A DNA stretch of 40,512 nt from a virus. The stretch spans positions 1 to 40,512 of IMG/VR virus record IMGVR_UViG_3300017772_000033; one strand, written 5' to 3'. Below are positions 3,017-33,081 of the stretch, in pieces; the first letter of the stretch is position 1; each line of letters starts with the position of its first letter. The translations under genes were made by a program, and so were the position numbers. The notes under the pieces were generated by a model. The model did no database searches. It had not been told where the DNA came from and was given only the letters and a program-made list of their open reading frames with translations.

Positions 3017-3199
3017 GCTTGCGTGAAGCTTTTCCAGCGTTTAGGAATAGATACGGTCCAACTCGTCATTGGACTTCCCATCTGCAAGTCTCCCTTAGAG
3101 AGGTATCGGACAACGCTCAACGTCCGGTGCCTCTCTTTTTTGGGAGGCTACACGATAGATGTTGACTCTGTCAGGCTCCTCCTTACCATCCGGCGCAGT

Positions 3200-4243
3200 A
3201 TGACGATTACCCGGAGAGACAGCAGTTACCAAGTCTATGTGTGCCGTGGGGCACGTCGTTGGAGGAAGAGCGTAGCTACAGAGCAGCTAGCCCGCCTCCT
3301 AGAAGCAGAGTGGCGTCTAGCCCTACTGCAAGGAAGAGAACCTGTGATTGAATCAGATGAAGAAGTATCGGAGGAGTCTACGGATTCCAGTTTAGGGTGC
3401 ATGGCCGAACGCACTTTCAACCTCTATTGGGAGGGCACTAAGGGTGCGAAGACTGCCCGGTCCAACATCAACGACATCGTGAGGTTGGTGGGGGATGACT
3501 TGTGCATCACCAAGCTAGATCAGCGGGTGGTGAACGACCTGCTGAGTGAGCTGAGGGCGCGGGAGCTTTCCCCAGCCAGCATCAATCGGAAGATGGCAGC
3601 TCTCGGGAAGGTGCTCTCTCTGGCTTTTGAGGAGGGGACTATCGAGAAGCGGCCTAAGCTGCCGAGGCTGAAGGAGAACAACCAGAGGACCAAATGCTTC
3701 ACGCAGGAAGAACTCGACAGCATCTACACCCACATGGAGACCAACGGCCACAACGATGTGGCTGACTTCTGCCGGTGGCTAGTCGAGACAGGGATGAGAG
3801 TCTCAGAAGCTCGGCGCATTAGCTGGGAGAACTCAGGTATGAGGGACGGGGTATCCAGGGTCTACCACACCAAGACAGGGGATCCACGGTCCCTCCCGCT
3901 CACATCAACCGCTCGGGACCTGCTGTGCAAGCGTCACGAACGGCAGGTTGCTATGAAGCAGTCACTCTTAGACGCCACTCCCTGGGAGTCGGTGAGTCAG
4001 TCCAGGCTGACGTATGTATGGAACCAAGCACGGGAGAACCTGGGTATGACGGATCCTGACTGTGTGCCTCACTCACTCCGTCACACATGCGCTTCCCGCC
4101 TTGCCCGTAGCGGTGTGGATCTCCTCTCAATCAAGGAATGGCTAGGACATCGCACCTTGGCGATGACCCTCAGATACAGCCACCTAAGTAAGAATCAACT
4201 ACAGTCAGCCAAGCAGGCTTTGGAGGTATGGAGCGATGAATAG
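3200..4243 (+). CDS. int: Tyrosine integrase / site-specific recombinase
   Basis: A tyrosine recombinase that would integrate and excise phage DNA at att sites. Start taken at ATG 3200 (MTITRRDSSYQVYV...), giving 347 aa with a typical N-terminal arm-binding domain; the frame is open to a GTG at 3023, but those extra 59 residues do not look conserved. A SAM-like core-binding domain follows (roughly residues 70-165). The catalytic domain shows the full set: Arg in ETGMRVSEARR, Lys in YHTKTGDPRS, the H-x-x-R box HSLRHTCASRL, the His of LGHRTLAMT and the nucleophilic Tyr in LRYSHLS. All catalytic residues are present, so it should be active. It overlaps the next gene by eight bases and heads the transcript leading to the phage RNA polymerase, the position seen in other temperate T7-like phages. 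Confidence 0.95.
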   Translation: MTITRRDSSYQVYVCRGARRWRKSVATEQLARLLEAEWRLALLQGREPVIESDEEVSEESTDSSLGCMAERTFNLYWEGTKGAKTARSNINDIVRLVGDDLCITKLDQRVVNDLLSELRARELSPASINRKMAALGKVLSLAFEEGTIEKRPKLPRLKENNQRTKCFTQEELDSIYTHMETNGHNDVADFCRWLVETGMRVSEARRISWENSGMRDGVSRVYHTKTGDPRSLPLTSTARDLLCKRHERQVAMKQSLLDATPWESVSQSRLTYVWNQARENLGMTDPDCVPHSLRHTCASRLARSGVDLLSIKEWLGHRTLAMTLRYSHLSKNQLQSAKQALEVWSDE

Positions 4244-4562
4244 TGTCCGCAGTTGCCCGAATGGGCATCCCAGAATCCCTGAGAACCGGACCAATGCAGA
4301 CAAATGCAAAGTCTGCGCTGCTGAGCGGAGACGCAAGCTGTCAGAAAGGAACAGGGCGGCAAAGCGACTACAAAAGGACCGAGAACGGACCCAAATCAAC
4401 ATCAAGCTGCGAGGGTCAGCCACACGTTCAACCATCCAAGAAGACATCTACTTGGAGAACAGGAGGGTCGATAAGATTTTCAATCTGATGGACCAGCTCG
4501 AACTGGCTACGAGCAAGGCTGAACGGAATGCAATCCAGTCAGCAATCAATGAGCTATCGTGA
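4236..4562 (+). CDS. Small zinc-finger-like basic protein
   Basis: A 108-residue protein starting inside the end of the integrase gene (overlap 4236-4243) and ending in an overlap with the RNA polymerase start. The N-terminus has a Cys-x-x-x-His pair (SCPNGHPR) followed after about 15 residues by C-x-x-C (KCKVCAAERRRK), a plausible zinc knuckle like those in HNH-type or DNA-binding proteins. It continues as a highly basic helical region (RNRAAKRLQKDRERT) and a C-terminal helix pair. There is no HNH catalytic signature. I cannot name the family. Tight coupling to int and RNA polymerase suggests an early DNA- or RNA-binding accessory protein, for example an integration or transcription helper; this is inference. 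Confidence 0.75.
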   Translation: MNSVRSCPNGHPRIPENRTNADKCKVCAAERRRKLSERNRAAKRLQKDRERTQINIKLRGSATRSTIQEDIYLENRRVDKIFNLMDQLELATSKAERNAIQSAINELS

Positions 4563-17254: not shown

Positions 17255-20164
17255 ATGTCCTTAGTTAGCTGGTCCACTTCTAGCCTCATCTCTGGGGTAA
17301 GCCAGCAGCCTGAGACTCTGCGCTATGCGTCTCAAGCCGAGCTGCAAGAGAATGCCTACAGCTCTGTGGTGGATGGCCTAGTTAAGAGGCATCCTACGTC
17401 CCACCTAAACTTGATGGAGACCACGGCTGCTATAGCCGGAAGGTCTTCAGCGGTACACGCAATCAACCGCGATGTAGGAGAGAGGTATCTAGTTGTCTAC
17501 ACAGGTGGGGCTTCGTCCACTTCCCCAGGTATCAAAGTCTGGGACATTGGTGCCCGCCAGTTCCGGGAAGTCGAAGGTCCAGGAGGGACTGGGAATGGCT
17601 CTACGGCTGCTGACTTCTCGTATCTGAACAACCTAGACCCCAACAAGATCCGCTCAACCACGGTTGCTGACAACACGTTTGTTCTCAACCCTCAAAAGGC
17701 TGTAGAGCAGGATGCAGCAGTTAGTGCTGCCATGAGCACGGACGCCTACATTTTCGTAAAGCAAGGTGCTTACAACTCGAAGTATACGGCTGAAATCACA
17801 CTTTACGATTCTTCAGGCAACACGAGCGATGTGACTTTTACGGTCAATACTTGGAATGGTGACAGGGAGCCAGCAACAAGTCAGCAACCAAACGCTGGTC
17901 AGCCCATCAATGCCGGGAGTGTTACGGATCAGCAGAGGATCGTAGTGGGTTCTATCCCCACACTGGTATCGGGTGATCCGCCTGTCGCTTGGACTGCTTC
18001 GTTTCTTGGAACAAGCCATACAGTTATGCAGGGAGTCAATTGGCAGATTTCTGACATCCACAATCAAATGTATTTCCTGTGGAATGCTACCAACGGACTG
18101 TTTGCCTCTAGAATTGGGACTCAAGCCGCCGGTTACACTTCAACGGAAGTCAAGGGGAGATACACAGGTCTGGAAATCCGGCCTGTTCTTTCGGCTGCTC
18201 CCAGCGGAGGTTCTTGGACAGTAACACAGATACAATCCCCTTCGACAGACGAGGAGACATCGATCCAAACAAGCGACATCGCAGATAGGCTCATGGATGG
18301 GCTGGTTGCTGCAACGTCTTTGGCGACATTCACACGCTCTGGATCTGTCATCAAGTGTGTCCCCAAGTATGGGCCAGGAGGTTCTACTACGGACACAAGC
18401 TTCCACCTCTTCTCCGTCACGGACTCGAATGCGGACAGCATGATGAGGTTGGTCCACAAGAAGATCGATGTCCTCACTGACCTCCCTTTAGTATCTACGC
18501 ATGGCTTCAAGATCGAGGTGCAGGGCGACAAGAGCGAAGCAGCTGATAACTTCTATTTAGAGTTTGAAGCTAAAGATGGAGCAGGGGCATTTGGTGAGGG
18601 TGTATGGAAGGAAGCGGCTCTTGGGGGTCTTAGATACAAACTCAAAGCCGATACGATGCCTCACCGCCTTGAGCGGTTCTTCACCGCAGGAGGGGACCCA
18701 TATTTTGTGTGGGGTCCGATGCCTTGGGTAGACCGAGAAGTCGGGGATGACGATACTAACCCGTTCCCTAGCTTTTGCTCTCCCATAGGGCAGAACACTA
18801 CACGCATCACAGACATCTTCTTCCATCGCAACAGGATGGGACTTCTCTCAAATGACAACGTCATCTTGTCGGAGAGTGGTATCTACGAGAACTTCTTCCG
18901 AACGTCCACTACCACGTTATTGGATAGCGATGTCATCGATGTAGGCGTCTCCCACGTATCTGTCTCGTCACTCCATCACGCAGTCACTCTCAACGAGAAG
19001 CTAGTATTGTTCTCGGACCAGACGCAGTTTGTCTTGAGTGGTGAGCCTTACCTTACTCCCGCTACTGTTCAAATATCAGCAGTCACGGACTACGAGAACT
19101 ACACGACAATCCGCCCAAAGAATACTGGTAGGGGTGTGGTGTTCGGCTACAGCCACGGAGACTTCTCAGGAGTTCGGGAACTCACTCAGATCAACACAGA
19201 TGTTTATGATGCAGAGGACCTAACCGCCTCAGTTCCTAAATACATCAAGGGCACGCTCACCTCTTTTGCCACTTCAACATTGGAGAATATGGTGGCGGCC
19301 CTGTCAGACGAGGACACTTCATCCATCTTCGTCTACAAGTATTTCTTTGGAGCAGAGGGGCGAAGAGTTCAGTCCTCTTGGAGCAAATACAAGCTAGGCA
19401 CTAACTCAAACGTCCAGCACATCTCGTTCATTGAGAACACGCTTTACATCGTGGTGCTCCGCCCTGAAGGGCTGTTCTTAGAGCAGATGGTCATCTCGGA
19501 TGGGGGCACTGACCCCGACTCTACTTACATCACTACTCTTGACCGGCGTCTGAGTGATGCAGATACAGGGGTAAGCACGTCCTATTCTGCCGCAAATAAC
19601 ACAACCACGGTCACCCTGCCTTACAAGATTGAATCAGGTGTAGTGTATCAAGTTGTGTCTCGGGCTACTTCCTCAGTCTTCCCAGGCAACATCTACACCC
19701 TCCCTTCTGCACCTGTCGTGGGTAGCAACACCATCACTGTCGAAGGTGACCTTACCTCAGCACCTTTCTGGGTCGGGGAGCAATACAAGATGCTCTACGA
19801 GTTCTCCGCACCCCGCATCCGGGAAGCGTCAGGAACTACAGGAGGTCGTGGGGCAGTAGCTACAGGCCGCCAGCAGATCAAGTATGGCACAATTGTCTAT
19901 GACGAGTCCGGTCACTTTAAGGTCCATGTGACGCCGCAAGGTCGTGACACACAGACGCATGAGTTTTCAGCTACTTTGCTCAACTCTTCGGGAAGCCTTA
20001 TTGGGAACGTCGTTCTGGGTAGTGGTAACTACCGCTTCCCCATCCACTCTAAGAACAATCAAGTCTCAATTCAGATTGAGAACAGTTCGCCTCAGCCATC
20101 CAACCTCGTCTCTATCGAATGGGAAGCAGATTACACTTCCAGGACTTCCCGTTACCGGGGGTAG
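17255..20164 (+). CDS. Tail tubular protein B / nozzle (T7 gp12-like)
   Basis: A 969-aa nozzle protein, larger than T7 gp12 (794 aa). The N-terminus LISGVSQQPETLRYASQAELQENAYSS-type segment (about residues 11-35) with VDGLVKRHPTSHL is diagnostic for the family. Other hallmarks are the PFPSF..PI segment with DIFFHRNRMGLLSNDNVILSESG (about 528-550) and KLVLFSDQTQFVLSG (about 583-597). The extra length lies mainly in the first half and the C-terminal beta-rich part. Six copies form the tail tip that contacts the cell surface. Its 3' end overlaps the next gene by 46 bases. Confidence 0.95.
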   Translation: MSLVSWSTSSLISGVSQQPETLRYASQAELQENAYSSVVDGLVKRHPTSHLNLMETTAAIAGRSSAVHAINRDVGERYLVVYTGGASSTSPGIKVWDIGARQFREVEGPGGTGNGSTAADFSYLNNLDPNKIRSTTVADNTFVLNPQKAVEQDAAVSAAMSTDAYIFVKQGAYNSKYTAEITLYDSSGNTSDVTFTVNTWNGDREPATSQQPNAGQPINAGSVTDQQRIVVGSIPTLVSGDPPVAWTASFLGTSHTVMQGVNWQISDIHNQMYFLWNATNGLFASRIGTQAAGYTSTEVKGRYTGLEIRPVLSAAPSGGSWTVTQIQSPSTDEETSIQTSDIADRLMDGLVAATSLATFTRSGSVIKCVPKYGPGGSTTDTSFHLFSVTDSNADSMMRLVHKKIDVLTDLPLVSTHGFKIEVQGDKSEAADNFYLEFEAKDGAGAFGEGVWKEAALGGLRYKLKADTMPHRLERFFTAGGDPYFVWGPMPWVDREVGDDDTNPFPSFCSPIGQNTTRITDIFFHRNRMGLLSNDNVILSESGIYENFFRTSTTTLLDSDVIDVGVSHVSVSSLHHAVTLNEKLVLFSDQTQFVLSGEPYLTPATVQISAVTDYENYTTIRPKNTGRGVVFGYSHGDFSGVRELTQINTDVYDAEDLTASVPKYIKGTLTSFATSTLENMVAALSDEDTSSIFVYKYFFGAEGRRVQSSWSKYKLGTNSNVQHISFIENTLYIVVLRPEGLFLEQMVISDGGTDPDSTYITTLDRRLSDADTGVSTSYSAANNTTTVTLPYKIESGVVYQVVSRATSSVFPGNIYTLPSAPVVGSNTITVEGDLTSAPFWVGEQYKMLYEFSAPRIREASGTTGGRGAVATGRQQIKYGTIVYDESGHFKVHVTPQGRDTQTHEFSATLLNSSGSLIGNVVLGSGNYRFPIHSKNNQVSIQIENSSPQPSNLVSIEWEADYTSRTSRYRG

Positions 20165-20613
20165 AAGTCAGGACTTCCACGATTGGGGACTGTCTCCGTC
20201 TTGGGCCAAATCTGCGTAATGAGGACAAGGAGGAGATCCTTGCAGCTCTGGGCTGTGAGCCTACTGAAGGACTTACGCACACCTTCTTTAACTCCCAAGC
20301 ATGTCTGACTATCGTTCAGGATGGTGAACCAACTACCATGTTCGGTTCAGGCCGCATGCCTGATCAGAAAGGGGTAGGGATGATCTGGATGCTGTCATCA
20401 CCTGAACTACTAAAGATCAAAAAGCCCTTCTTGAGGGAATCTAAACGGTTCATAGCCCTACTAACTGCACCTTACGATGTAGTTATGAACTATGTTGACT
20501 GCCGGAATCTGCTACATCGTCGGTGGTTGGAGTGGTGTGGGTTCGTATTCATTGCAAAACACGATAGTTTTGGGGTAGGTAAGCTGCCTTTTTACGAGTT
20601 TGTGAGGATCTAA
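20119..20613 (+). CDS. Internal virion protein A-like, acyltransferase fold (T7 gp13-like, DUF2833)
   Basis: A 164-aa protein with the pattern of the T7 gp13/DUF2833 family: RNEDKEEILAALG (about residues 33-45), a segment with GEPTTMFGSG, GVGMIWMLSSPELLK (about 89-103), and VDCRNLLHRRWLEWCGFVF (about 126-144). This resembles a GNAT acyltransferase fold. The only in-frame start before the conserved region is the ATG at 20119, inside the nozzle gene. In T7 gp13 is needed for proper virion morphogenesis. Its enzymatic activity is unproven. It lies exactly where T7 places gene 13. Confidence 0.85.
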   Translation: MGSRLHFQDFPLPGVEVRTSTIGDCLRLGPNLRNEDKEEILAALGCEPTEGLTHTFFNSQACLTIVQDGEPTTMFGSGRMPDQKGVGMIWMLSSPELLKIKKPFLRESKRFIALLTAPYDVVMNYVDCRNLLHRRWLEWCGFVFIAKHDSFGVGKLPFYEFVRI

Positions 20614-20616
20614 AAT

Positions 20617-21198
20617 ATGTGTTTGATAACAGCAGCAGTTGCAGGCACGGCAGTAGCCGCCGCCACAGCGAACATGGCAATTATGGCGGTCATCACAACC
20701 GGCATTCAGATGCAGCAGCAGAGAGCTAATGCCAAGTCCATGGAGAGAGCAGGCAAGCAGAGGCAAGCCGAACAAAAGCAGATCAACGATGCAAACGCTA
20801 TGAGTCAGTATGCAGCTATCGCTGATGCAGACCGGGAAAAGGAGATTGCGATGTCGGCCAAGAAACGAGCTAATCAGCTAAAGGCAGATGAAGCTCGGGC
20901 GTTTGCTGTGAGTCAGGCTGGCGAGACTGGGGTGAAAGGTCAATCCGTAGGGTTAATGCTGGATGACCTGGACAAGCAGGACTCAGCTTTCGTCACAGCT
21001 CTAGACCAGCAGGAGATGTTTCAGAACGCACAGTTCATTAGGCAGGGTGAGCGCATCCGAGCGGGTCATCAAGCCGGGTATCTGGCAGCTGTTCCTGATC
21101 CTGTCCCACAGCCTAACTACTTGCAGGGCATCGTGAACATCGGCAGCACCGCGCTAGGGACTTACATTGATGCTGGTGGCACGTTTGGAGAAGACTAA
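20617..21198 (+). CDS. Internal virion protein B (T7 gp14-like)
   Basis: A 193-aa ejection protein (T7 gp14 is 196 aa). A hydrophobic N-terminal segment (about residues 3-28, Ala/Ile-rich) would insert in the outer membrane after ejection. It is followed by a long Gln/Ala/Lys coiled coil (about 32-130) and a short Pro-containing C-terminus. Gp14 forms the outer-membrane part of the channel through which T7 DNA enters the cell. The start lies three bases after the gp13-like stop, and the stop overlaps the next start. Confidence 0.9.
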   Translation: MCLITAAVAGTAVAAATANMAIMAVITTGIQMQQQRANAKSMERAGKQRQAEQKQINDANAMSQYAAIADADREKEIAMSAKKRANQLKADEARAFAVSQAGETGVKGQSVGLMLDDLDKQDSAFVTALDQQEMFQNAQFIRQGERIRAGHQAGYLAAVPDPVPQPNYLQGIVNIGSTALGTYIDAGGTFGED

Positions 21199-24100
21199 TG
21201 GCAAGTAAAAAGAGAGCTAAACTCCGCAGGCTAGCGGATCCTGAAACTGTTTCTAGAGCACAACCTTTAGGAGACATTTCCAGGCCCGTAAACACAGACT
21301 TCGTGCTTCCCCGCATCAAGCCGAAGATCCGAAATGTGACGGACCTGAGTCAGTTGAGTGCGACTGTTGGTAAGGCACTAGCTGTCAAAGCTCAGATAAA
21401 GACGAAGAAGGAGGAGGATGAGGACCTTACTAAAGGTCAGGCTTTCTATAGGGCGCACCCGGAGTTCCGAAAGAATCTAACTACATTTGCCAATGCTGTA
21501 GAGGCTAGGTTAATTGACCCCACTACTCGACCTATGTTTTGGCGGGGGATGGCTGAGGCGCATGGTCAGCAGGTAGTTCAAGATTTTGCCAACCCCGACA
21601 CGGGTCCCCTAAACGATCTCGAAAATAGCCTCAGTAGCCCTGACCGTGAGGAAGGCGTAACCATAGACGGTGAGTTTGATCGCGTCTGGGCAGAGGGTCC
21701 AGGGAAGCTAACGGATACTGACTCCCTTAGAGTAGTCAACGGATTGTATGCCAAGCTCAAGAGCAACTTCGTGGCGAGAGTTGGGCAAAAATACAATAAT
21801 AACGTAGCGGAACGCAGTCAGTCATTAGAGGTCAATAACATAACTGGGGGTTTGACCGCCAGACTAGCCCAAACTCCCGGCAATCTAACACCTGAAAATG
21901 CTCAAGAGTTAGCTCGACAGTTAGAGGAGAAAAGAAATACAGGTAATTTGGGGGATCTCTCAGCAGATGCCGCGATGCACCGTGGGGGTATGGCGTATCT
22001 CGACAGTCTTAACCCCCCCACCGATGGGAACCTGTCTGCTACCGAGCAGCTGGAACACATCGATATGGCACTCGATGCGGCTCGGTCGTTTTTGGGGGAC
22101 GGAAAGGAGAATAAGGGTCTGGTCGTAGGAACTGACGTAATTGGAGGGAAAGGCTTCCGTAGCGTTTACGTCGGTGGGGGTAACAAGGAACAGATTAAAC
22201 ACCGGGGAGAATTGGAGGCTTTCATCAACGATCGGGAAAGTGATCAGAGGACGTTAGAAAGGGAACAGGATCGGCAAGGGATTGCAGCTCAGAACAAGTC
22301 CACGACGATTATGAGGCAAGTGGAGACCAGCCTCGCCCTGATGCAAGCGAGGAACCCTCAAGGTCTGAGGAATGTGGCTACAACAGTCGCAGGCATATTT
22401 GAACAGGCACAAACAGATAACCTGTCTAATGAGGATCTGACGAAGAAGCTCCAAGAAGTCTTTGGAGAGAACCATTGGGAGCTAAAGCAGACTGAAGTTG
22501 TCAATGCTGACAAGGTTTCGAGGGGTCTGTTCGTGGCAGGTCTACAAACCTCATCCAGAAGTATTAGACAGGAGCCAACAGATGAAGCTATTAACGCCGA
22601 AGCTGCTTTCCGTGTGAGTGTAGAGGATAACGACTTTCGAGGTGCGAGAGACATCCTGGATCATTCCCCTTTCTCTGTCGCAGAGAGGACCAGACTTGAA
22701 GCAGTACTCCGTAAAGCAAAGTCTGCGGCCAGCGCACATGAAGATCCAAAGGTGAACCCCTCGTTCCTAATAGCTAAGGGCCGAGTGACAGAACAGGATA
22801 AGAGGTTTGCAGCTCTGGGTCTGGGTCTGACCCCTACAAACAATGCGCTAGTAGGTGAGCTGGGACGTAAGCGCGATGCTCTTTGGGACCGAGTCTACGA
22901 AGGTTTGCTTGAAGATGCCGAAAGGGCGAGCGGCCAGCTGCGCGAGCTGAGTGAGTCTAATGTTACTCTATCAGGAGTTGTTACTGACGCCCTGATGAGA
23001 GAGGCGTTGAACCGCACTCCCGAATATCAGGAGATACTTGATGAAATTGACGGGGTATACAAAACAACGGAAGATACTCAAAATAAGAATGCTAGGGATA
23101 TTCGCGACAAGTTGGATAAGGGGGAAAAGCTAGGCAAGGATGAGCTTAACAACCTGCTGAGTGAGGGAGGTATCTCTCAAGCCCAACACAGTCAATTGGA
23201 TGCAGCTAGCCGTAGGTTGAATGGGAAGACTGCGGTGGTAACGCAAAAGACAATCGAGTTTGCTGAGCTGTTAGCAGACATCACCGCCAAAAGACCGTTG
23301 AATATAGCAGGAGTTGTTACCGATCAGACAGTGACCGCCGCTTTTACGGAGAGCCACGAACATGCCAAGCTTGCTGTGAGGGACTTTGTGCAGGAAGCGG
23401 CTAACAACATAGTCTTAAGTTACGGCGATAAAGCCTGGAACGCAGCCGATCTTAAGAACGCGGTTGATAACCACCTCAGACAGAAGGGTGTAATCAATGC
23501 GGCAAAGCAGGTGTATAAGGACGCTTTTGAGGGTCGTAAGGACAAAGCATCAGCTCCAAAGCCAGCCTCTAAGGACGGAGGGGAGGTTGAAGTGGCGTCC
23601 ACTGAGGCACCCACCCGACCTCAAAGTATGACCGATGAGGAAGTGTCTCTTCGTGAGTCCTCAATGAATTATGTGAAGGGATCAGAAGCTAGCCCGGAAC
23701 AAGGTAACTGGGAGGCTCTACAAAGAGTCCGGGTTATGAACCCTGAAAGCGGCGTGGATAGTGCAAACCTCTTCGGTCTTGGCCCGAAGTTTATGAGTCA
23801 ATTCCCCTCGTCTTATGATTGGTGGTGGGATGATACTCAAAGCTTTGCAATGGAGGAGATTCTGGGTAGGGCTTTAGGCAGACTTACAGATCCTGGAACA
23901 GACTGGTCTAAAGTGAAGGAAGTTGTTCCTGTCCCCATTGCTGAAGGGTCAGAAGTGGTGATGGACATCTCGAACGTCGTGTTGGGGGGTCCTACACCCA
24001 GGCCCCCTAGCGGTAGTGTGGATATTTATAATCCACCATTCTTCACACCGAGTCGTACGATTGGGAATACGATTACCTTGAATCCTTCTTTAGTGAAGGG

Positions 24101-25058
24101 TGTAGTTCCTAAAGGTTCAAACATATACATCAATACCCACCGTTCTCCCTTCCTATACAGCAGCCCTACTGGTGAGTTTGCGTCGGGCGGAGCAGGGGCG
24201 CAGGGTATATTCTCAGCCCTGATGGGCGAACTTTACAGTCCAGAGCTGGCCGATAGTGAGAACCTGACAGAATCACTAAGTGGTCCGGTGTTAGGTAAGG
24301 TAGCCGCTCATTCCGGGGCCAAAGTTACGCGATCACTAACCGTAAAAGGCTTCAGCAAGAACAAAAAGCTCCCTTACTCCGATTCAATGATATCGGAAAG
24401 AGCAAGGGCTGAAGGGTTTGGACGGAACATTGCCCCGCACTACCAGGAAGTCGGGGGTAACGGGATGGCTGATGTAGAAACTCTAGCTCGTCACTCTATC
24501 TCTGAGATGTTGATGTCGGATGATCCAGAGGCGGTTTCAAAAGCTCAGCAAATGAGTCGCGTGCTAGTTATCCCCATGTCATGGGTCATCAATAGGAGGG
24601 CGGAGGTAACAGTAGAGACGAAGCTATTAGCTGAAGTGTCCGCTAGTAGGACGCCGTCGTGGGAGCCTCACGTAGGAGTGCCAAGATTCAATCGCAATCC
24701 TGAGCCGCACACAGACGTGGACTTGCTGATCAGCACTACATACAGCTTCCCCTATAATAATGACCCTGAAGAGACCCCAGACGAGAAGCGGACGGACATC
24801 TGGAAAAGCCGGAACTTCAAGAACCTAGCTCAGCTTGATAAGCTACTTTCAGATCCTTCTACGTATGACGAGAAGACTGGTTCCTTTGTAAAGGGGAGTG
24901 AGCCTGCTCAATTTTTGAAGGCCCAAGGACTCAACGTCACACCGGAAGTGACAGCGGCCTACATTAAGATGCAAGCGTATCTGATTGCGCCATTCGACCC
25001 TTCGGCAAACGAGGATACCATGTCCCGCTTTGTTGGGACTATGCGTAGCACGAAATAG
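21198..25058 (+). CDS. Internal virion protein C-like giant (T7 gp15 position)
   Basis: A 1286-aa protein, much longer than T7 gp15 (747 aa). It starts MASKKRAKLRRL with a basic N-terminus and is mostly helical through about residue 800, with repeated Glu/Lys/Gln-rich coiled-coil segments. The early segment YRAHPEFRKNLTTFANAVEARLIDP (about 83-107) resembles the gp15 N-terminal region. From about residue 800 the composition changes: a Pro/Ala/Ser linker, then a beta-rich section with Gly/Pro/Ser and Tyr (about 890-1100) I cannot assign. No lytic transglycosylase or other catalytic motif is apparent. By position it would be a periplasmic part of the DNA-ejection channel. The C-terminal extension may carry an unrecognised effector domain. 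Confidence 0.8.
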   Translation: MASKKRAKLRRLADPETVSRAQPLGDISRPVNTDFVLPRIKPKIRNVTDLSQLSATVGKALAVKAQIKTKKEEDEDLTKGQAFYRAHPEFRKNLTTFANAVEARLIDPTTRPMFWRGMAEAHGQQVVQDFANPDTGPLNDLENSLSSPDREEGVTIDGEFDRVWAEGPGKLTDTDSLRVVNGLYAKLKSNFVARVGQKYNNNVAERSQSLEVNNITGGLTARLAQTPGNLTPENAQELARQLEEKRNTGNLGDLSADAAMHRGGMAYLDSLNPPTDGNLSATEQLEHIDMALDAARSFLGDGKENKGLVVGTDVIGGKGFRSVYVGGGNKEQIKHRGELEAFINDRESDQRTLEREQDRQGIAAQNKSTTIMRQVETSLALMQARNPQGLRNVATTVAGIFEQAQTDNLSNEDLTKKLQEVFGENHWELKQTEVVNADKVSRGLFVAGLQTSSRSIRQEPTDEAINAEAAFRVSVEDNDFRGARDILDHSPFSVAERTRLEAVLRKAKSAASAHEDPKVNPSFLIAKGRVTEQDKRFAALGLGLTPTNNALVGELGRKRDALWDRVYEGLLEDAERASGQLRELSESNVTLSGVVTDALMREALNRTPEYQEILDEIDGVYKTTEDTQNKNARDIRDKLDKGEKLGKDELNNLLSEGGISQAQHSQLDAASRRLNGKTAVVTQKTIEFAELLADITAKRPLNIAGVVTDQTVTAAFTESHEHAKLAVRDFVQEAANNIVLSYGDKAWNAADLKNAVDNHLRQKGVINAAKQVYKDAFEGRKDKASAPKPASKDGGEVEVASTEAPTRPQSMTDEEVSLRESSMNYVKGSEASPEQGNWEALQRVRVMNPESGVDSANLFGLGPKFMSQFPSSYDWWWDDTQSFAMEEILGRALGRLTDPGTDWSKVKEVVPVPIAEGSEVVMDISNVVLGGPTPRPPSGSVDIYNPPFFTPSRTIGNTITLNPSLVKGVVPKGSNIYINTHRSPFLYSSPTGEFASGGAGAQGIFSALMGELYSPELADSENLTESLSGPVLGKVAAHSGAKVTRSLTVKGFSKNKKLPYSDSMISERARAEGFGRNIAPHYQEVGGNGMADVETLARHSISEMLMSDDPEAVSKAQQMSRVLVIPMSWVINRRAEVTVETKLLAEVSASRTPSWEPHVGVPRFNRNPEPHTDVDLLISTTYSFPYNNDPEETPDEKRTDIWKSRNFKNLAQLDKLLSDPSTYDEKTGSFVKGSEPAQFLKAQGLNVTPEVTAAYIKMQAYLIAPFDPSANEDTMSRFVGTMRSTK

Positions 25059-25063
25059 AATCT

Positions 25064-28000
25064 ATGGGTAACTGGTATAACGAATCTTCCCAAGCTCCCC
25101 AAGCTCCCCAAGCTCCCCAAGCTCCTGAAGAGAAGATTGAGGAGTTTGGCTTTTTCGATCATGTGGGCGATCTGGCTATGTCAATCCCTCGCGGGGTCGA
25201 GGGGATGGTCCAAGATGTCTATGGACTTGCCGATACTCTGACGGGGGACATCCTCCCTGACTACGATCAACGTCTACTAGGCGAGAGTGAGACGTTCGCT
25301 GGTGGCATGATCGAGGGGCTTGCCAACTTCGCATCTGGTTTCATCCCGGTTGTGGGGTGGGTAGGTAAAGGTGCGAAGGTGGGTCGATCACTTACGCTAG
25401 CTAAGGGCCTGACAAAGGAAGCCCAGGTTCTTGCAAAGGCTGCGGGTAAGTATGGAGTTCGGGGTTCCACGAAGGCAGGAGTGCCAATTCTAGGGAACGC
25501 CGGTATCGATGTGACTCGTGCGGCGGTTGCTAGTGCGATTACAGACTTTGCGGTCTTCGACGGACACGAAGCGCGTCTTGCTAATCTGATTCAGTCTGTC
25601 CCTGAGCTGGCTAACCCTGTTACGGAGTTTCTGGCTGCGGATGACTCGGATGGAGAGATCGAAGGCCGACTCAAAGCCATGCTTGAAGGCTTCGGGTTAG
25701 GGTCCATCATCGACACCTTCATCCTCTCAGTTAAGCACTTCAAGGGCTACAAGATCGCCAGGGCTGAGGGAGCATCTCCCCGCGAAGCCCAGAATCGTGC
25801 AGACGAGGCTGTGGACCCGAAGCAGATTCAGACTGCAATGAATGCTGCGAGACACGGGCCAAATCCAGATGACCCTTACTCATTTGCACGGCTCGTAGAT
25901 GATGAAGATGAGATCAACACGAATGCTGGGCAAGGACCTACTGGTGTATACAAAGGCACGAGCGGCATCAATGGTGAGGGCGGGCTTAGCAAGCGTAGCC
26001 AGCTAAACCACATCCGTAACTTGGCTTTGATGGGGGCTAGGCAAGGTGAAGTTGGTAAGGAGTGGTATGAGAAGTCTGGTCAAGAGATCCTAAAACTGAC
26101 TGGTGGTAATATCGACGAGGCTGACAAGATCGCTCAACTTGTTGCAGTGTTCTCTCCTCAGACGGGGGTTGAGGCTAACTTTGAACGGGCACTTCGCGCT
26201 TACTACATGGCGAAGAGGGTCAACAAGACCACGTGCCTCCGGGAGAAGTCGCAAATCAACACGTCGGTCATGCAGGAGCAGGCTGCGGCAATCCTCTACG
26301 ATGACCAGTGGCTTCCCGATGTCGTTAGACACTTGGGGGTGAAAGGCGAGCACATCAACCGTGGTGCTGGTCGGAAGATTTCCAACTTCTACAACGACAT
26401 CATGTCGGGGATTGATCCAACAAGGACTAGGGTCAAAGGCTCCACGATGGATATGTGGATGTCCCGCTACTTTGGGTTTGCTCCTACTAAGGGGTCTACT
26501 GGAGGGTCCGAGTGGAAGGTGACCAACGCTCAGTATGACTACATGCAGCGGACGGTGAAGTCAGTAGCCGACGAGCTAGGTTGGGAGCAGCACCAAACAC
26601 AGGCTGCAATCTGGTCCTACGCTAAAACACTCTGGGAGTCCATGACTGGTGAAGTTGAGACTCTTGCTGAAGCTGCGGGGCTGAAGCGGAACAAGAAGGG
26701 CAACTTCGACCTTAAGAGCAACGTCGAGTATGGGAACTTCTATCAGGATCAATTTCAGAAGCGTCTGAATGTTGAAGCAGGAGCTTCTCAGAAGTTTGCA
26801 GCTGCTGAATCATTTGACTTGAGCAGCTTGCTGCGTAAGAAGTCGATTGTCCTCCCTGACACATCCATCCCTTCACAGGGTTCCGGGATCCTTGAAGGAC
26901 TTCACCACGCTTCTTGGGAAGAGAAGGTGCAGTTCCAGGCGGATATGGAGCTAGCCCGTGTTGGGGACCAAGGTCAAGATCTCATTGAAGAGGCTTTAGG
27001 GTTCGGCTCACGGTCGAAGGTTGATCCTTCAGATGCAACGCTCATGCCTGGGCCTGCTTCTAAATCTGGGACTGTGCAGGACAGGGTTAAGGGTAGAGGG
27101 AGTAAGAGCGATCCAGCTGCGCGTTCCCAAGCTCAGGCGTATGCGATGGTCGAAGGTCTTTACCACGGGCGAGGAGTTGTGCAGGGTGTGCAGATTCTGC
27201 GTGGTAAGCAGATCCCCAAGAAGTCCGCTAACGCTTTTGAGATCACGTTAGGACGCAGGCGTGGTGATGGGGATCTAGAAGCTATTCAGCACGCTGTGAA
27301 GTCAGCTTTTGGATCCAGGAAAGTTACGGTCATCCCTTTAGATGACGGGTTTGCCCTGCTTTCCGAGGGTAAGTTGAAGGGACTCCCATTCGTCAAAGAG
27401 TCGGAGAAGATCCTGGCTGACCTCAACCTTCCAGAATCCCAGTTAAGTGGTGAGCATGTTTTTGCTGACCACTTTCGAGTTGATAGTAAGACCTCAGATG
27501 GAAGTGGATTTAGGAATCTACTAGAGAAACAAGGACATGAAAAAGCTCTCAAACGGTTGGATGATGTTTACGGACCTAATGTCGCAGACACCCAGCGGAA
27601 ATACCAAGGCAAGGGCCACGGAGATGCCCCTCGAAAGCCCGGTTCCGAAACCGGCCCAGATGGCACCCCAGGAGGATCCCCAGCCAAGTCCCAGCCCGAT
27701 GGTCCAGCCCTCGACCGAAATGCCGCCCGCCTTGAAGACCTCAGAGGAAAGCCCATTGCCGTCAACTCCGATGGAACAATCACCCTCTACCATCGAACCA
27801 CCAAAGAATCCGCTCAGCGGATCTTAGACACCGGAGTCTTCCAGCCGGGGTCTTTTGATAAAGATGGTAAGTTCCAACCTTTTGATAAGGATACCTACCC
27901 AGCAGCTAATGAAGGGACGCAGCGGCGTATGGAAGGAACCTTCTTCAGTAACCTGGAGCAGGGCCATGCCGATGGTTACGGGTCTTCGGTCGTTTCTATC

Positions 28001-29026
28001 AAGATCGATCCAGCTCACGTAGAGTTGGATGACGCCTTCCATAACGGTGAGATCCATGTTCGAGTGGGTCCTGATGAACTCGGATCGGCATCGGTTGTAG
28101 GTGCCAACGATCCCAGGTTCACTCCTGAGCAAATTGCAGCCGCTAGCAAGACTAACATTGCTTGGACCACTACTGCGGTATCCAAGGCAGTTCTCAAACT
28201 TGCGGCGTCCTTCATGCCTGATGGTGGGAGAATCTTGGATTTCGGGTCGGGTAAGTGGGGAACGGAAGGGGCTGCGCCTGGGTGGGACAAGAGCCGTTAT
28301 TACGGCAACCCTATCGAGGCTATGGGCTACAAGATCGACCTATACGACTTTGAGGTAAACACAGGTCCGCATCACAACCCCAATGCGCTAGCCGAGCAGT
28401 ATGACTTGGTCATGGCTAGCAATGTCCTGAATGTTCAGGGTGCAGGAGCACGCACTTTAGAAGATGCAGTGAGGATGCTTGATAACACCATTGAAGAGAT
28501 CGCTAAGTCGGTAGACAGCGGAGGTAGAGCAATCGTCAACCTTCCGGTGGATCCGCGAAAGAAGGCGTTTGACGGGCTGTCGCCAGAAGGAGGTAAGAAG
28601 TCTGAGAAGCAGAGGACTCAAGCAGAGTTCTTGCGGGGTAAACTTCTTCAGCGTTTTGGGCGAGTTGAACTTGTCAGCGGTAAGATGACTGCTGCTCCAG
28701 TATTCATGGCTTCTAATAAATTGGCTGACCCTCACATCGATGGGATGCTACATCCTAAGTTCGAGGAAGCGGCTCCTGGTATCAGCGAGTTTAAGCAGCT
28801 TCTCATCCGCCAAGGTTACTCAATGGATAACCCAGCAGATATGGAAGTAGTTGTTAGAGCCATCCAAAAAGAGTTCGGAGGGGCGATTATGAAAAGCAAG
28901 AAAGGTGGTTCTGACTATCTGTGGAACAAGATGCCTGATGGGACCGAGCTTGATTTTCATGGGGAAGCTATGAATGACGGCAACGGTTGGGACGCAACTA
29001 TTAACGAGAAGGGTGGCTGTCAATGA
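25064..29026 (+). CDS. Giant ejection protein with ART-like and methyltransferase-like domains
   Basis: A 1320-aa protein between the gp15-like and gp16-like genes. It has a QAP repeat at residues 10-21, a hydrophobic/helical N-terminal part (about 30-240), and a helical module (about 300-520) with VFSPQTGVEANFERALRAYY and QTQAAIWSYAKTLWE, resembling modules of phage polyvalent proteins. A Pro/Gly-rich linker follows (about 850-890). A segment at about 905-1010 looks like an ADP-ribosyltransferase: LYHRTTKESAQRILDTG, then GTFFSN, then a Glu in GEIHVRVGPDEL. At about 1040-1170 a Rossmann methyltransferase pattern appears: ILDFGSGKWG (motif I) and YDLVMASNVLNVQ (motif IV). Being among the internal virion genes, it is probably ejected into the host. 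Domain calls are by motif only. Confidence 0.8.
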   Translation: MGNWYNESSQAPQAPQAPQAPEEKIEEFGFFDHVGDLAMSIPRGVEGMVQDVYGLADTLTGDILPDYDQRLLGESETFAGGMIEGLANFASGFIPVVGWVGKGAKVGRSLTLAKGLTKEAQVLAKAAGKYGVRGSTKAGVPILGNAGIDVTRAAVASAITDFAVFDGHEARLANLIQSVPELANPVTEFLAADDSDGEIEGRLKAMLEGFGLGSIIDTFILSVKHFKGYKIARAEGASPREAQNRADEAVDPKQIQTAMNAARHGPNPDDPYSFARLVDDEDEINTNAGQGPTGVYKGTSGINGEGGLSKRSQLNHIRNLALMGARQGEVGKEWYEKSGQEILKLTGGNIDEADKIAQLVAVFSPQTGVEANFERALRAYYMAKRVNKTTCLREKSQINTSVMQEQAAAILYDDQWLPDVVRHLGVKGEHINRGAGRKISNFYNDIMSGIDPTRTRVKGSTMDMWMSRYFGFAPTKGSTGGSEWKVTNAQYDYMQRTVKSVADELGWEQHQTQAAIWSYAKTLWESMTGEVETLAEAAGLKRNKKGNFDLKSNVEYGNFYQDQFQKRLNVEAGASQKFAAAESFDLSSLLRKKSIVLPDTSIPSQGSGILEGLHHASWEEKVQFQADMELARVGDQGQDLIEEALGFGSRSKVDPSDATLMPGPASKSGTVQDRVKGRGSKSDPAARSQAQAYAMVEGLYHGRGVVQGVQILRGKQIPKKSANAFEITLGRRRGDGDLEAIQHAVKSAFGSRKVTVIPLDDGFALLSEGKLKGLPFVKESEKILADLNLPESQLSGEHVFADHFRVDSKTSDGSGFRNLLEKQGHEKALKRLDDVYGPNVADTQRKYQGKGHGDAPRKPGSETGPDGTPGGSPAKSQPDGPALDRNAARLEDLRGKPIAVNSDGTITLYHRTTKESAQRILDTGVFQPGSFDKDGKFQPFDKDTYPAANEGTQRRMEGTFFSNLEQGHADGYGSSVVSIKIDPAHVELDDAFHNGEIHVRVGPDELGSASVVGANDPRFTPEQIAAASKTNIAWTTTAVSKAVLKLAASFMPDGGRILDFGSGKWGTEGAAPGWDKSRYYGNPIEAMGYKIDLYDFEVNTGPHHNPNALAEQYDLVMASNVLNVQGAGARTLEDAVRMLDNTIEEIAKSVDSGGRAIVNLPVDPRKKAFDGLSPEGGKKSEKQRTQAEFLRGKLLQRFGRVELVSGKMTAAPVFMASNKLADPHIDGMLHPKFEEAAPGISEFKQLLIRQGYSMDNPADMEVVVRAIQKEFGGAIMKSKKGGSDYLWNKMPDGTELDFHGEAMNDGNGWDATINEKGGCQ
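25091..25126 (+). repeat. Four tandem 9-bp units encoding Gln-Ala-Pro
   Basis: Four consecutive CAAGCTCCC units (the last ends in T) encode QAP repeats at residues 10-21 of the 1320-aa protein. The near-perfect nucleotide identity suggests recent slippage expansion. Copy number changes would stay in frame, altering only linker length. Confidence 0.9.
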
Positions 29027-32000
29027 GTGCTCAAGGTCCAGTTTGTCGCATCAATACCGTCAGTCCTGATGCGTTAAAGCATGTCGATCAGGATGCTGAA
29101 GCACTCTCTAACAGGATGGCCGCAGATGCGCTGAGAGATCCAATCTCAAAAGCTGTCACGGACATTGATGAGATCACCAAGATGAAGATTGCCATGAACT
29201 CGGATGGCAGTCACTCGGTGGGGACTTCACCAGACAACCCTACTGGCATGCTTCCAGAGGACCTCAAGGTCAAGAAGCGGGGGATGGATCACATCATGAA
29301 CCGGGTCAGGTTCAACCGCAACCTGATCCGAGATGCGGCGAATAAGCCTTCGCATAAGCGGACTAAGTCGGAAGAGAAGCTGGCTGGTCAGATTCTGACG
29401 GATCGAGACCAAAAGATCGTTAGTAGGTTTGCGGAAGCGATGGGCGAATCGCTTTTCGATAACATTCACCTCCGCTTCAGCGACCGAACTTCTGAAGAAG
29501 TGAGGCGGAACATAAGGCCCAAAAGGAATGAGCCACCCTTTGAAGGCGAGTTTAGCTTTCTTGAGGACATCATCACGATCTCATCAAAGGCATTACAGCT
29601 GGGGGCCTTCCACGAGACAATGATCCACGAGATGTGGCACCATATGTCTAGGTATGTGGACGATAAGACAGTTGTAAAGCTTCACAAGCAATACAAGAGA
29701 GACCGTGCTCACTACATGAAGGCCAATCCTGGTGCGGAGGCTCGCGTTCGCAACCGTAAGTGGACACCCGAGGAATACCGATGGGTGAACTTCGACGAGT
29801 GGTTTGCCGAGACCGCGAAGGATAGGTCTCTCGATAAGCTCAAGGATTTTGGCGATAGGGAGCGAAGTGTGATGCTCCATATTAAGCAGTGGATGCTAGA
29901 AATGGTGGCTGCGATCAAATCCAAGTTTGGGTGGGAGCACACCGAGAAACTGGTCAATGACTTCTTCTACCGGAAACCTCAAAATGCTTCCTGGAGCGGA
30001 GCCAAAACTAAATCGATCCTGGTCAACCCCACGGATTGGGCTTTTACTCCAGCCCCAAATAGAACGAAGCGTTCTGGTCAGCCAAAGAACCCCTATAACT
30101 CGCGGACAAGCAAGCATCGCCAATGGGGTTTAGAAGATGGGCTAACAGCTTTTTCAAAGAAGAGGGCGGGTGGTAAGTCAGCAACGAGGGTTAAGAAGAA
30201 TGAGCCTGAAGACGGGCGAATCGGACTTCTCCGTCCTTTAGGACTCGATGAGAATGCAGCTCGTGTCCTCCTAAGTAACGTCGATAAACGCTTGGGGCTA
30301 ACTGCAAAGCTAGGTATCAATCCCCGAGCTAAAGTCAAAGACCCTGATGGGAAGCTAGTATACAAATACTCTAAGGCTGACCTTCTTGACCGCTACCTCA
30401 GCCGTCGTGACCTCAACCTGTCTCACTACTCCGGGCCAGAGGATGCCATTTCAGTTATTCGGACTCACGAAGACTTGTTCCGGTCAGTCATCGGGGAAGA
30501 TGTAGAAGCAGTGAACCCAAGAACTCAGGCACAGCAGCTTGCTGATGCTAGAGAAGAGCTAGGGGTCATGGTGGCTACAACCTCTAAAGATGACCAAGCT
30601 TTGCAAGTCAACATCGAGAGGGGATTGACTGAAGATGTGCGCCAGCTGTCGGAGATCCATGCGCGTGTCTTAGCGTATAAGAATCTTCAGCAGTCGATGG
30701 GGCAGATGATCCTCAAAGACCTACAGAACTTTAAGACGCCTGGAGGCGATTCAAGCGAGGCTATGGCGAGGCTCCACAGCAACGTGGAGTTCATGGCTAA
30801 CCTAACTGCGGGGGTGAAGGGCCTCACCGCGCTACAAGGACGTGGCTTGAGTTCTGGCAATATCCCGATTGAAGGAATTATTGCAGACCCTGCGAAGCTT
30901 CAAGATTTCCTTCAGATGCGGGGCGGAAAGAAAGGCACCGACAGATTGGTGAAGATCCTCGAAACCACTCTGACTGAAGGAAAGATGGATTCCCAAGGGA
31001 TTGGCAGGGTCAACCAGCTAATTAAGCCGAGTGTCGGTAAGCGGGTGATGAACATCACTACCGAATACTGGATCAACTCCATCCTATCAGGAGGTAAGAC
31101 GCTCTTCGTTAACGGGCTAGGCGGGGTAATGATGTCCGTCTACCGTCCAATGGAGAAGATGCTTGGAGCTTCTCTCACACTTAATGGTCAGGCTTTGACC
31201 GACGCGACTGCGGAGCTTACCTACCTGTTTGTCCACGCAAACGATGCGTTCAAGATGGCGTGGAAGTCTCTAAAGCAGGGGGACAACATCCTTGATCCTG
31301 GATCACGAGTCCTCGACCTGCCTGAAAATAACTTCAAAGCTATCTCGGCTAGAGGGGTGGGTCTTAAAGATGACAGCTTGATGGGTAGTGGTGTGAACTT
31401 CTTAGGGAACACCTTCCGGCTCCCTAGTCGAATCCTTACTGGAACTGACGAGTTCTTTAAGCAGCTCAACTACCGAGCAAAAGCTCACAGGATGTTGGTG
31501 CGCGAAGGTATGGGCCTTGGAATGAAAGGCGACGATCTGGCAACCCACGTCCATGATCGCCTTGCCATGATGACCGAGGATGGTCAGGCTTACTCAGCTG
31601 CAACTGCTTACAAGCGAGGAGTCCAAGCTGCGAAGGAATCAGGCATTATTGATCCTGAAGAGATAAAGATATTTGCTCAGAAATACACTCAGAGACCTCC
31701 TGAGCAAGGCGGGTTCGATCACGCCATGAACACGATTTCAAAGGAGTCACTGAAGGTGGCTGAAGAAGTCACGTTTACTAGGGCACTTGCTGCGGGGTCT
31801 ACTTCGGCGGGCATTCAAGCCATGGTCATTCGTCAGCCTTGGATGCGCTTCATTGTCCCGTTCGTTAGGACGCCAGTGAACATCGCTATGACGGCAGGGC
31901 GTCGGTTTGACTTCTTGGGGGCATCGCGGGTTGCTTACCATAAGCTTAGCGGTTCAACCCACCACTTGAGAGAGTCTCAGAATCAGCTAATGAAGGACTT

Positions 32001-33081
32001 CGGTTCTGCTGATCTAGGTAAGAGAGCAGAAGCTGCCGGTCGAGCTGCCGCTGGCAGTATGGCGGCGGTAGTGCTGTATGGGTATGCAAACCAAGGAAGG
32101 ATGACCGGGCGGGGTCCAGCAGACCCTGAGCTACGCCAGATCCTCAAGGATGCAGGGTGGCAACCATACTCCTTCAAGACCAAGGACGGATACGTGTCCT
32201 ACGCCCGAGTTGACCCATTCGCAACAGTCATGGGCACGATGGCAGACATCCACGACTACATCCGCTATTCAGACATTGAGGATCAAGAAGAGCTATCAAC
32301 AGCGTTGACGGGTTTGGTTGTGGCTTTGACACAGAACTTCACAAACAAGACCTACCTCGCAGGTTTGTCTAATGTCCTTCAAGCTTTGGAGCAGCCTGAC
32401 AGGTTTGTGCCAAAGTTGGCGAGAACCTACGCAGCTTCAATGATCCCATTCAGCAGTGCTCAAGGTCAGTCGCTGTATGCCATGGGCGATCCATACATGA
32501 GAGACGTGCAGTCCATGACTGAGGCGTTGATGGCTAAGACTCCCTACTACAGTGACCAAGTCAGGCCACTTCGGAACTTCTTAGGAGAGCCGGTTAAGCG
32601 AGTCACTGCCGCAGGGACAGATGCGATTGGTTCTGTGATGGACCTTTTTCAGCCTATCTCTTACACGCAGTTTACAGATGACACCCTTAAACTGGAGTTT
32701 TTGAAGCTTGGTCACGGGTTTACTCCTCCAAAGCCTATGAAGTATGGGCTGAACCTCACTAATTATGTCAACCCTGATACAGGTCAGGATGCGTTTGACA
32801 GGTGGCAAGAGCTTAACGGGGAGATCAAAATCAATGGCAAGACTCTGAGGGGTTCGATGTTGAGCCTCGTCCGTAACAGCCAATACCAAAAGCTCACCTA
32901 CATGAGTGACCAAAGTGCTGAAAGCCCCCGAATCGGGTTAATTAAGCGTATTTTGGAGGCTTACAAGAAAGTCGCTTTTGAGCAAGTTAAGAAGGAATAC
33001 CCCGACCTTGCCGAAGACTTTGTGAACGTCTTTAATATCAAGAACCTAAGAAAGCGCGGCGTTGTCGCAGGCGGCTACTAA
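29023..33081 (+). CDS. Giant ejection protein with zincin protease motif (T7 gp16 position)
   Basis: A 1352-aa protein (T7 gp16 is 1318 aa), start overlapping the previous stop (ATGA). Residues about 140-320 contain a zincin metallopeptidase pattern: HEMWH at 202-206 (HExxH) and a downstream NFDEWFAE (about 256-263) that could supply the third zinc ligand. A basic linker follows (about 340-400). The C-terminal two thirds is helical, with RLPSRILTGTDEFFKQLNYR, PWMRFIVPFVRTP and the hydrophobic AAGSMAAVVLYGYANQGRMTG (about 1010-1030), a pattern typical of the large polyvalent-protein-associated C-terminal domain (LPD38-like) of ejection proteins. The lytic transglycosylase domain of T7 gp16 is absent, so the protease may replace it. 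It is likely to be the largest internal core and inner-membrane channel protein. Confidence 0.85.
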   Translation: MSAQGPVCRINTVSPDALKHVDQDAEALSNRMAADALRDPISKAVTDIDEITKMKIAMNSDGSHSVGTSPDNPTGMLPEDLKVKKRGMDHIMNRVRFNRNLIRDAANKPSHKRTKSEEKLAGQILTDRDQKIVSRFAEAMGESLFDNIHLRFSDRTSEEVRRNIRPKRNEPPFEGEFSFLEDIITISSKALQLGAFHETMIHEMWHHMSRYVDDKTVVKLHKQYKRDRAHYMKANPGAEARVRNRKWTPEEYRWVNFDEWFAETAKDRSLDKLKDFGDRERSVMLHIKQWMLEMVAAIKSKFGWEHTEKLVNDFFYRKPQNASWSGAKTKSILVNPTDWAFTPAPNRTKRSGQPKNPYNSRTSKHRQWGLEDGLTAFSKKRAGGKSATRVKKNEPEDGRIGLLRPLGLDENAARVLLSNVDKRLGLTAKLGINPRAKVKDPDGKLVYKYSKADLLDRYLSRRDLNLSHYSGPEDAISVIRTHEDLFRSVIGEDVEAVNPRTQAQQLADAREELGVMVATTSKDDQALQVNIERGLTEDVRQLSEIHARVLAYKNLQQSMGQMILKDLQNFKTPGGDSSEAMARLHSNVEFMANLTAGVKGLTALQGRGLSSGNIPIEGIIADPAKLQDFLQMRGGKKGTDRLVKILETTLTEGKMDSQGIGRVNQLIKPSVGKRVMNITTEYWINSILSGGKTLFVNGLGGVMMSVYRPMEKMLGASLTLNGQALTDATAELTYLFVHANDAFKMAWKSLKQGDNILDPGSRVLDLPENNFKAISARGVGLKDDSLMGSGVNFLGNTFRLPSRILTGTDEFFKQLNYRAKAHRMLVREGMGLGMKGDDLATHVHDRLAMMTEDGQAYSAATAYKRGVQAAKESGIIDPEEIKIFAQKYTQRPPEQGGFDHAMNTISKESLKVAEEVTFTRALAAGSTSAGIQAMVIRQPWMRFIVPFVRTPVNIAMTAGRRFDFLGASRVAYHKLSGSTHHLRESQNQLMKDFGSADLGKRAEAAGRAAAGSMAAVVLYGYANQGRMTGRGPADPELRQILKDAGWQPYSFKTKDGYVSYARVDPFATVMGTMADIHDYIRYSDIEDQEELSTALTGLVVALTQNFTNKTYLAGLSNVLQALEQPDRFVPKLARTYAASMIPFSSAQGQSLYAMGDPYMRDVQSMTEALMAKTPYYSDQVRPLRNFLGEPVKRVTAAGTDAIGSVMDLFQPISYTQFTDDTLKLEFLKLGHGFTPPKPMKYGLNLTNYVNPDTGQDAFDRWQELNGEIKINGKTLRGSMLSLVRNSQYQKLTYMSDQSAESPRIGLIKRILEAYKKVAFEQVKKEYPDLAEDFVNVFNIKNLRKRGVVAGGY

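Follow-up and report, generated by a model that had tools for sequence, protein, structure and literature searches.

What is a methyltransferase-like domain, following directly on a segment that resembles an ART, doing in the middle of a giant protein encoded among the internal virion proteins of a phage? A first-pass annotation of the sequence had pictured an ejected 'unusual double effector' here that might protect incoming DNA or alter host factors, and its several claims are taken up below where the evidence bears on them. The window, meaning the whole stretch of DNA analysed, is the entire IMG/VR record IMGVR_UViG_3300017772_000033 (40,512 bases, classed linear); contigs with relatives are given L numbers.

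The phage and its gp16-like protein

Pfam and PHROGs matches in the window comprise portal, major head protein, tail protein, terminase, primase/helicase and DNA polymerase, with internal virion proteins and a T7-type tail fibre in addition, and the phage is a T7-like podovirus carrying an integrase. The integrase is shortly upstream of the T7-like RNA polymerase (window 3023-6982) and, given this, the phage is probably temperate. The features relevant to the giant protein and its surroundings are:

3023-4243: integrase
4559-6982: single-subunit RNA polymerase
20119..20613, + strand: internal virion protein, phrog_308 match, same cassette as ORF A
20617..21198, + strand: internal virion protein, phrog_805 match, same cassette as ORF A
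21198..25058, + strand: large ORF of 1286 aa at the gp15 position, same cassette, its role assigned from position
25064..29026, + strand: ORF A (1320 aa), N-terminal half of a giant internal virion protein resembling gp16; phrog_6651 at residues 14-308; aligns in the same order with the L144 protein's first half
25103..25987, + strand: N-terminal region of ORF A, phrog_6651 (profile positions 64-332), E 1.5e-12
26039..26617, + strand: DUF7178 domain (PF23802), E 2.3e-6, above the gathering cut-off
29023..33081, + strand: ORF B, 1352 aa, gp16-like second half; phrog_6651 at residues 906-1172; collinear with the second half of the L144 protein
29626..29640, + strand: HEMWH, zincin metallopeptidase-like motif, ORF B residue 202

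The cassette is made up of the phrog_308, phrog_805 and phrog_6651 proteins, and the tail fibre is downstream. Phrog_6651 is matched in both ORF A and ORF B, phrog_805 comes before them and a T7 tail-fibre N-terminus after, all of which mark a T7 gp16-like protein. The claim that the ORF A protein is ejected into the host is supported by this position, ejection itself being what a protein so placed would be expected to undergo.

Why two reading frames? ORF A and ORF B overlap by ATGA, with purine-rich GAAGGGTGG preceding the ORF B ATG. L144, a contig found by the scan with motif I only that is described below, encodes a single 2613-aa protein that aligns with ORF A (900 bits, 41.6% identity over residues 29-1314) and then runs on in the same order over ORF B, so that the two ORFs are halves of one gp16-like protein. 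Regional identities to L144 are 51% for the N-terminus, 56% for DUF7178, 49.5% for the ART-like segment, 41.7% for the methyltransferase and 33-53% for ORF B. The joined L144 protein has HExxH at residue 1501, and in the window the HEMWH of ORF B, judged by its motif, likely adds a metallopeptidase to the presumably ejected complex of ORF A. The polyvalent-protein theme raised at first pass is supported: ORF A has a secure methyltransferase and a probable ART-like segment, ORF B a zincin motif, the two ORFs are one protein in L144, and relatives of the methyltransferase occur in polyvalent giants. No helicase family was found in ORF A or ORF B with Pfam or PHROGs.

Was the enzyme block there from the start? 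The region containing DUF7178, a domain mentioned in no paper that a literature search returned, is common to ~50 viral contigs, including giant proteins of up to 4853 aa, and since among these contigs L144 only has the methyltransferase, the block looks like a module gained in the window/L144 lineage. In L129 a DUF7178 region and a methyltransferase region are combined in another giant protein.

The methyltransferase domain and its family

The domain had been placed at 28195-28620, which is right as to location and too narrow as to extent, the actual span being about 28106-28735:

28106..28735, + strand: class I SAM-dependent methyltransferase domain by sequence and model, ORF A residues 1015-1224
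28232..28261, + strand: motif I, ILDFGSGKWG, residues 1057-1066, strand 1 and Gly-rich SAM loop
28331..28354, + strand: strand 2, KIDLYDFE, whose acidic D1095 stands where the ribose would be expected to bind
28400..28438, + strand: motif IV, YDLVMASNVLNVQ, residues 1113-1125
28538..28561, + strand: conserved loop NLPVDPRK after strand 5 (N-x-P-x-[ST]-P-R-K in the family)

Motifs I and IV are present as originally placed, their starts 56 residues apart (about 55 had been given). FMPDGG, then taken for a predicted helix, contains the end of one (model helix 24-36, i.e. residues 1038-1050) and is otherwise loop before strand 1.

Might two such motifs have come together by chance? Against a profile of 45 homologues, with the window itself left out, the window scores 124 bits, and with the same profile it retains 88 bits when motif IV is masked and 65 when motifs I and IV both are; the best of 1000 shuffled domains reaches 3.6 bits, and these scores rule out a chance motif pair. 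With PF13489 (Methyltransf_23) the window domain scores 12.1 bits, below the curated cut-off of 27, which is passed by relatives L043, L051, L053 and L125, and the profile is matched by 38 of the 46 family members. A PHROGs search matches the window domain to a methyltransferase family (E 0.0017). NCBIfam gave it no match, and a PDB sequence search with the single window domain gave chance matches only. There was likewise no match when the window domain, L043 and L053 were run by tblastn against 50,697 phage records, or, against plasmids, the window domain and L079, and peptide-pattern scans based on the window alone did not find the methyltransferase relatives.

AlphaFold2 with a 46-sequence alignment gives the window domain a Rossmann-like fold (mean pLDDT 83.6, pTM 0.83), with ILDFG as strand 1, DLYDF as strand 2, YDLVMAS as strand 4, GGRAIVNLP as strand 5 and two further C-terminal strands; a single-sequence AlphaFold2 model of ART-like segment plus methyltransferase (pLDDT 35) was of no use. 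The top Foldseek matches listed from the PDB either are SAM-dependent methyltransferases or share that fold, and among the matches listed VIA-align Z reaches 13.0 (rmsd 3.0 over 153 residues), the first two rows having rmsd 2.7-3.0 over 139-153 residues. As SAM methyltransferases with many different substrates tie in this comparison, the fold is secure and the substrate not indicated. The class I assignment made at first pass, with structure prediction and comparison to class I methyltransferases as its proposed check, is upheld by the profile score and by this Rossmann-like model with its SAM methyltransferase matches. The Gly-rich loop is also kept across homologues, both glycines of FG[AS]G being at least 98% conserved in the family; S-N-x-[LI]-N of motif IV and NxPxxPR are conserved in it too. 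By sequence and model together, then, ORF A residues 1015-1224 are a class I SAM-dependent methyltransferase domain, for which SAM binding and catalysis are predicted.

Could it be a catalytically dead remnant, kept as a structural element of the ejection core? The family's TSR has an Arg that is almost invariant (96%); in the window it is Ile1032, and L109 has Val at that position and then the same Trp (TSVGW, as against TNIAW in the window). This loss in both would suit a remnant, as would the great differences in domain composition between gp16-like proteins (PMC8954989). Yet the SAM loop, the acid of strand 2, motif IV and NxPxxPR all remain intact, and the 42% identity to L144 is similar to that elsewhere in the protein, which does not look like decay. 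We consider a dead remnant unlikely, and comparison of the sequences indicates that loss of the TSR Arg in the window and L109 may mark a subfamily instead of reflecting decay.

The first IMG/VR scan, for DNA encoding A-x-N-V-L-N-V-Q, yielded 40 stretches, about two thirds of which hold the whole domain, recognised by N-terminal A-N-x-T-S-R, LDFGAGK, strand-2 [DE]F, HDxxAL, motif IV, NxPxSPRK and C-terminal GGxxxAP. A wider scan added members, to which 257 billion bases of prokaryote contigs contributed only four relatives; the methyltransferase family is mostly viral. Some of the contigs are near-duplicates, and the counts given here are of contigs rather than of independent events. The invariance of ASNVLNVQ in the resulting alignments is circular, motif IV having been the search pattern. 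A retest scanned with motif I only ([IV]LDFGAGK) and gave ~12 strong family members, whose motif IV reads ASNVLNVQ, CSNVLNVQ, ASNVINTQ, ASNVLNVC, ASNVINVQ, ASNMINTQ, ASNVLNVM, VSNVINVQ or VSNVLNVQ. Motif IV being kept in relatives picked by motif I alone, the conservation of S-N-x-[LI]-N does not depend on its use as bait.

The family tree joins the window first to L144 (98/87) and next to L109 (99/90), and the distribution of fused, solo and capsid-targeting-like forms over it requires at least seven changes. Some relatives that are parts of giant proteins are accompanied by LPD38, ART-PolyVal, GP88 or a GHKL-type ATPase domain. Further away is a second group of small methyltransferase-like phage proteins (L127, L128, L140, L108), with NVLNV[IL] as motif IV and LDFGAGK or FDFGAGK as motif I.

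ART company and small relatives in T4-like phages

The segment upstream of the methyltransferase is:

27767..28066, + strand: ART-like segment, phrog_6170, with the His of LYHRT, the Asp of ELDD and the aromatic pair of GTFFS

The LYHRT His and ELDD Asp are invariant in four relatives, and at the aromatic second position the window has Phe and L144 has Tyr. Phrog_6170, a family of unknown function, matches the window and L144 at E ~1e-9 and L080 weakly, and the segment is 33-34% identical to small mycobacteriophage proteins. One stand-alone relative of it, mycobacteriophage CELFI gp111 (L208:2968-3321), is inside a tRNA gene cluster. In an H-Y-D type ART the His is in strand 1, the Tyr in strand 2 and the Asp in strand 5; the founding survey of polyvalent proteins gives the H-Y-D pattern for their ARTs, and the residues of the window segment may fit it (PMC5512222). 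The PF18760 (ART-PolyVal) profile does not match the segment, and comparison of its profile with the ART-PolyVal sequence profile gave a probability of 3.5%, no match; we reject assignment to PF18760 on both counts. An ART label is plausible from the residue pattern, and we write ART-like rather than ART. Of the claim that a methyltransferase is fused right after an ART-like segment, the fusion is conserved in L144; for a true ART there is neither a PF18760 nor a profile-profile match.

Does the partnership extend beyond the fusion? PF18760 is on 9 of the 51 contigs with the methyltransferase, and in four of these nine (L029, L050, L052, L096) the ART-PolyVal is at most 250 bp from the methyltransferase, on one side of it or the other and on its strand. 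Random placement reproduced this adjacency in none of 20,000 trials, a result that overstates the significance since effector genes cluster. ARTs are described in the survey as the commonest protein-modifying domain of polyvalent proteins (PMC5512222), so some co-occurrence is expected. Counting the window/L144 fusion, ART plus methyltransferase is a repeated association. 'Unusual double effector' was too strong a term, for the combination is on record in the polyvalent survey (PMC5512222) and recurs in relatives.

Small stand-alone relatives, of ~180 aa, are found on T4-like contigs. Their N-termini include MKNFKQFIQE (L085), MSKFEKYLAE (L057), MKTLKQFLKE (L071), MITFKRFLAE (L021) and MLSFKQYMTE (L026). 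The capsid targeting sequence (CTS) of T4 IPIII is its first 10 residues, with positions 4 and 7 mainly responsible for targeting and 8 and 10 for processing (PMC9026906), and the first four of these N-termini fit it at positions 4, 7, 8 and 10. Among 3013 first-ATG ORFs from all loci the CTS-like pattern occurs in 16, nearly all within the contigs with small relatives, and a T4-type prohead protease is on 5 of the 20 contigs with small relatives. In L029 an ART-PolyVal gene and a small methyltransferase gene are separate, have CTS-like starts and overlap at their ends (L029:3571-4786). On another T4-like contig (L017:5237-8580) an ART-PolyVal gene is close to a small methyltransferase gene, with CTS-like N-termini, and the same contig has a further CTS-like protein, of 118 aa, with YHGTS.

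Might the enzyme act at home, modifying a virion component or its own protein during assembly rather than a host target? By position ORF A is a late virion gene, and the small relative L021 shares its 8.8-kb contig with a prohead protease. This has little to commend it all the same: nothing specific speaks for it, and the CTS-like N-termini, the ART company and the zincin point to delivery.

Proposed role and known systems

Virion-borne enzymes act prior to any phage gene expression and so must hit targets that are vital in the first minutes of infection. As an explanation of the whole we lean towards a methyltransferase and ART-like module in the gp16-equivalent that would be ejected and would modify a host protein, RNA or small molecule. 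The methyltransferase with its upstream ART-like module would be an insert midway along the ejection protein equivalent to gp16; the internal core of the virion would package the ORF A protein; upon infection this would be expelled into the cell, with its middle or C-terminal part projecting into the cytoplasm, which offers SAM and NAD+. There the methyltransferase, and probably also the ART-like module, would modify host macromolecules ahead of all phage gene expression, to the benefit of the phage. T7 gp16-C is located in the host cytoplasm after ejection (PMC8954989), and since the enzyme block is flanked by internal-virion family matches it would by analogy be exposed there during genome entry, a topology borrowed from T7 gp16, which is a distant relative.

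And the substrate? Polyvalent proteins often carry a DNA adenine methylase, and DarB of P1, which is carried in the virion, acts against restriction (PMC5512222), so that a DNA methyltransferase protecting the incoming genome from restriction, as DarB does, would have precedent. The methylases described in the passages of that survey that were searched are DNA adenine methylases, EcoKI/TaqI-like with NPP[Y/F] and nearly always fused to a SWI2/SNF2 helicase (PMC5512222), whereas NPP[Y/F] is absent from the window, the wider [DNS]PP[YFWH] is in 1 of the 46 family members, a PCQ-type motif is in none, ORF A and ORF B have no helicase and Pfam places the family with PF13489/PF08242/PF13847. The missing NPP[YF] and PCQ signatures speak against a DNA adenine or cytosine methylase, a reading that we reject, and, being missing from the family, make DNA protection disfavoured, so that this part of the first-pass annotation fares badly and genome protection by base methylation is improbable. 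With DNA bases disfavoured as substrate on these motif grounds, the ejected methyltransferase would most likely act on protein or RNA of the host, or on a small molecule.

A wider proposal, which we put forward tentatively and hold to be somewhat less probable than its negation, is of an undescribed family of virion-delivered methyltransferases that would be a standing partner of ARTs in unrelated phages, hitting host protein or RNA at infection and deployed in three ways: by fusion to a T7-like ejection protein, as a capsid-targeted small protein in T4-like heads, and within polyvalent giants. That relatives in unrelated phages have both enzymes or a head-packaging signal suggests a widely used, uncharacterised early-infection enzyme. 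To our knowledge few virion-borne enzymes have been studied, T4 Alt and P1 DarB being examples. A methyltransferase family of non-DNA type that recurs beside ARTs and as small CTS-like genes offers compact proteins of ~180 residues that can be assayed for a new host target.

How does all this compare with what is familiar? Among class I enzymes (PF13489, UbiG, TehB-like, PrmA, Trm9) the fold and layout of the SAM site are shared and 38/46 relatives match PF13489, but identities in structure alignments with UbiG, TehB-like, PrmA, Trm9 and others are 9-19%, and the family has its own SN[VM][LI]N motif IV and NxPxxPRK loop. The T4 internal proteins and Alt are head-carried and delivered with DNA, and the small methyltransferase relatives resemble them in their CTS-like N-termini, and the one in L029 has for a neighbour an ART gene that itself begins CTS-like; the window copy differs in being fused into an ejection protein and in having no CTS. 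P1 DarB is, as here proposed, a virion-carried methyltransferase within a large multidomain protein, but DarB is an adenine methylase with NPP[Y/F] that is joined to a helicase, and the window protein has neither. T7 gp16 (internal virion protein D, phrog_6651) is matched by the window protein at both N- and C-terminus and by its place in the genome, behind the genes at the gp14 and gp15 positions and ahead of the tail fibre; in contrast to gp16 the window protein has roughly double the length, is divided between two ORFs, and has DUF7178, ART-like, methyltransferase and zincin-like parts in its middle. With polyvalent proteins, as their survey has them (PMC5512222), it shares the giant size and would share the several unrelated enzymatic domains, here methyltransferase, ART-like and, in the adjoining half, HExxH zincin-like, and relatives of its methyltransferase carry LPD38 and ART-PolyVal; unlike them, its block sits in a T7-gp16-type ejection protein and its methyltransferase is not an NPP[Y/F] adenine methylase with helicase. 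A polyvalent-type enzyme block is thus a known thing; what is new is to meet it in the ejection protein of a T7-like phage, and with a class of methyltransferase that the passages searched in the founding survey do not describe (PMC5512222).
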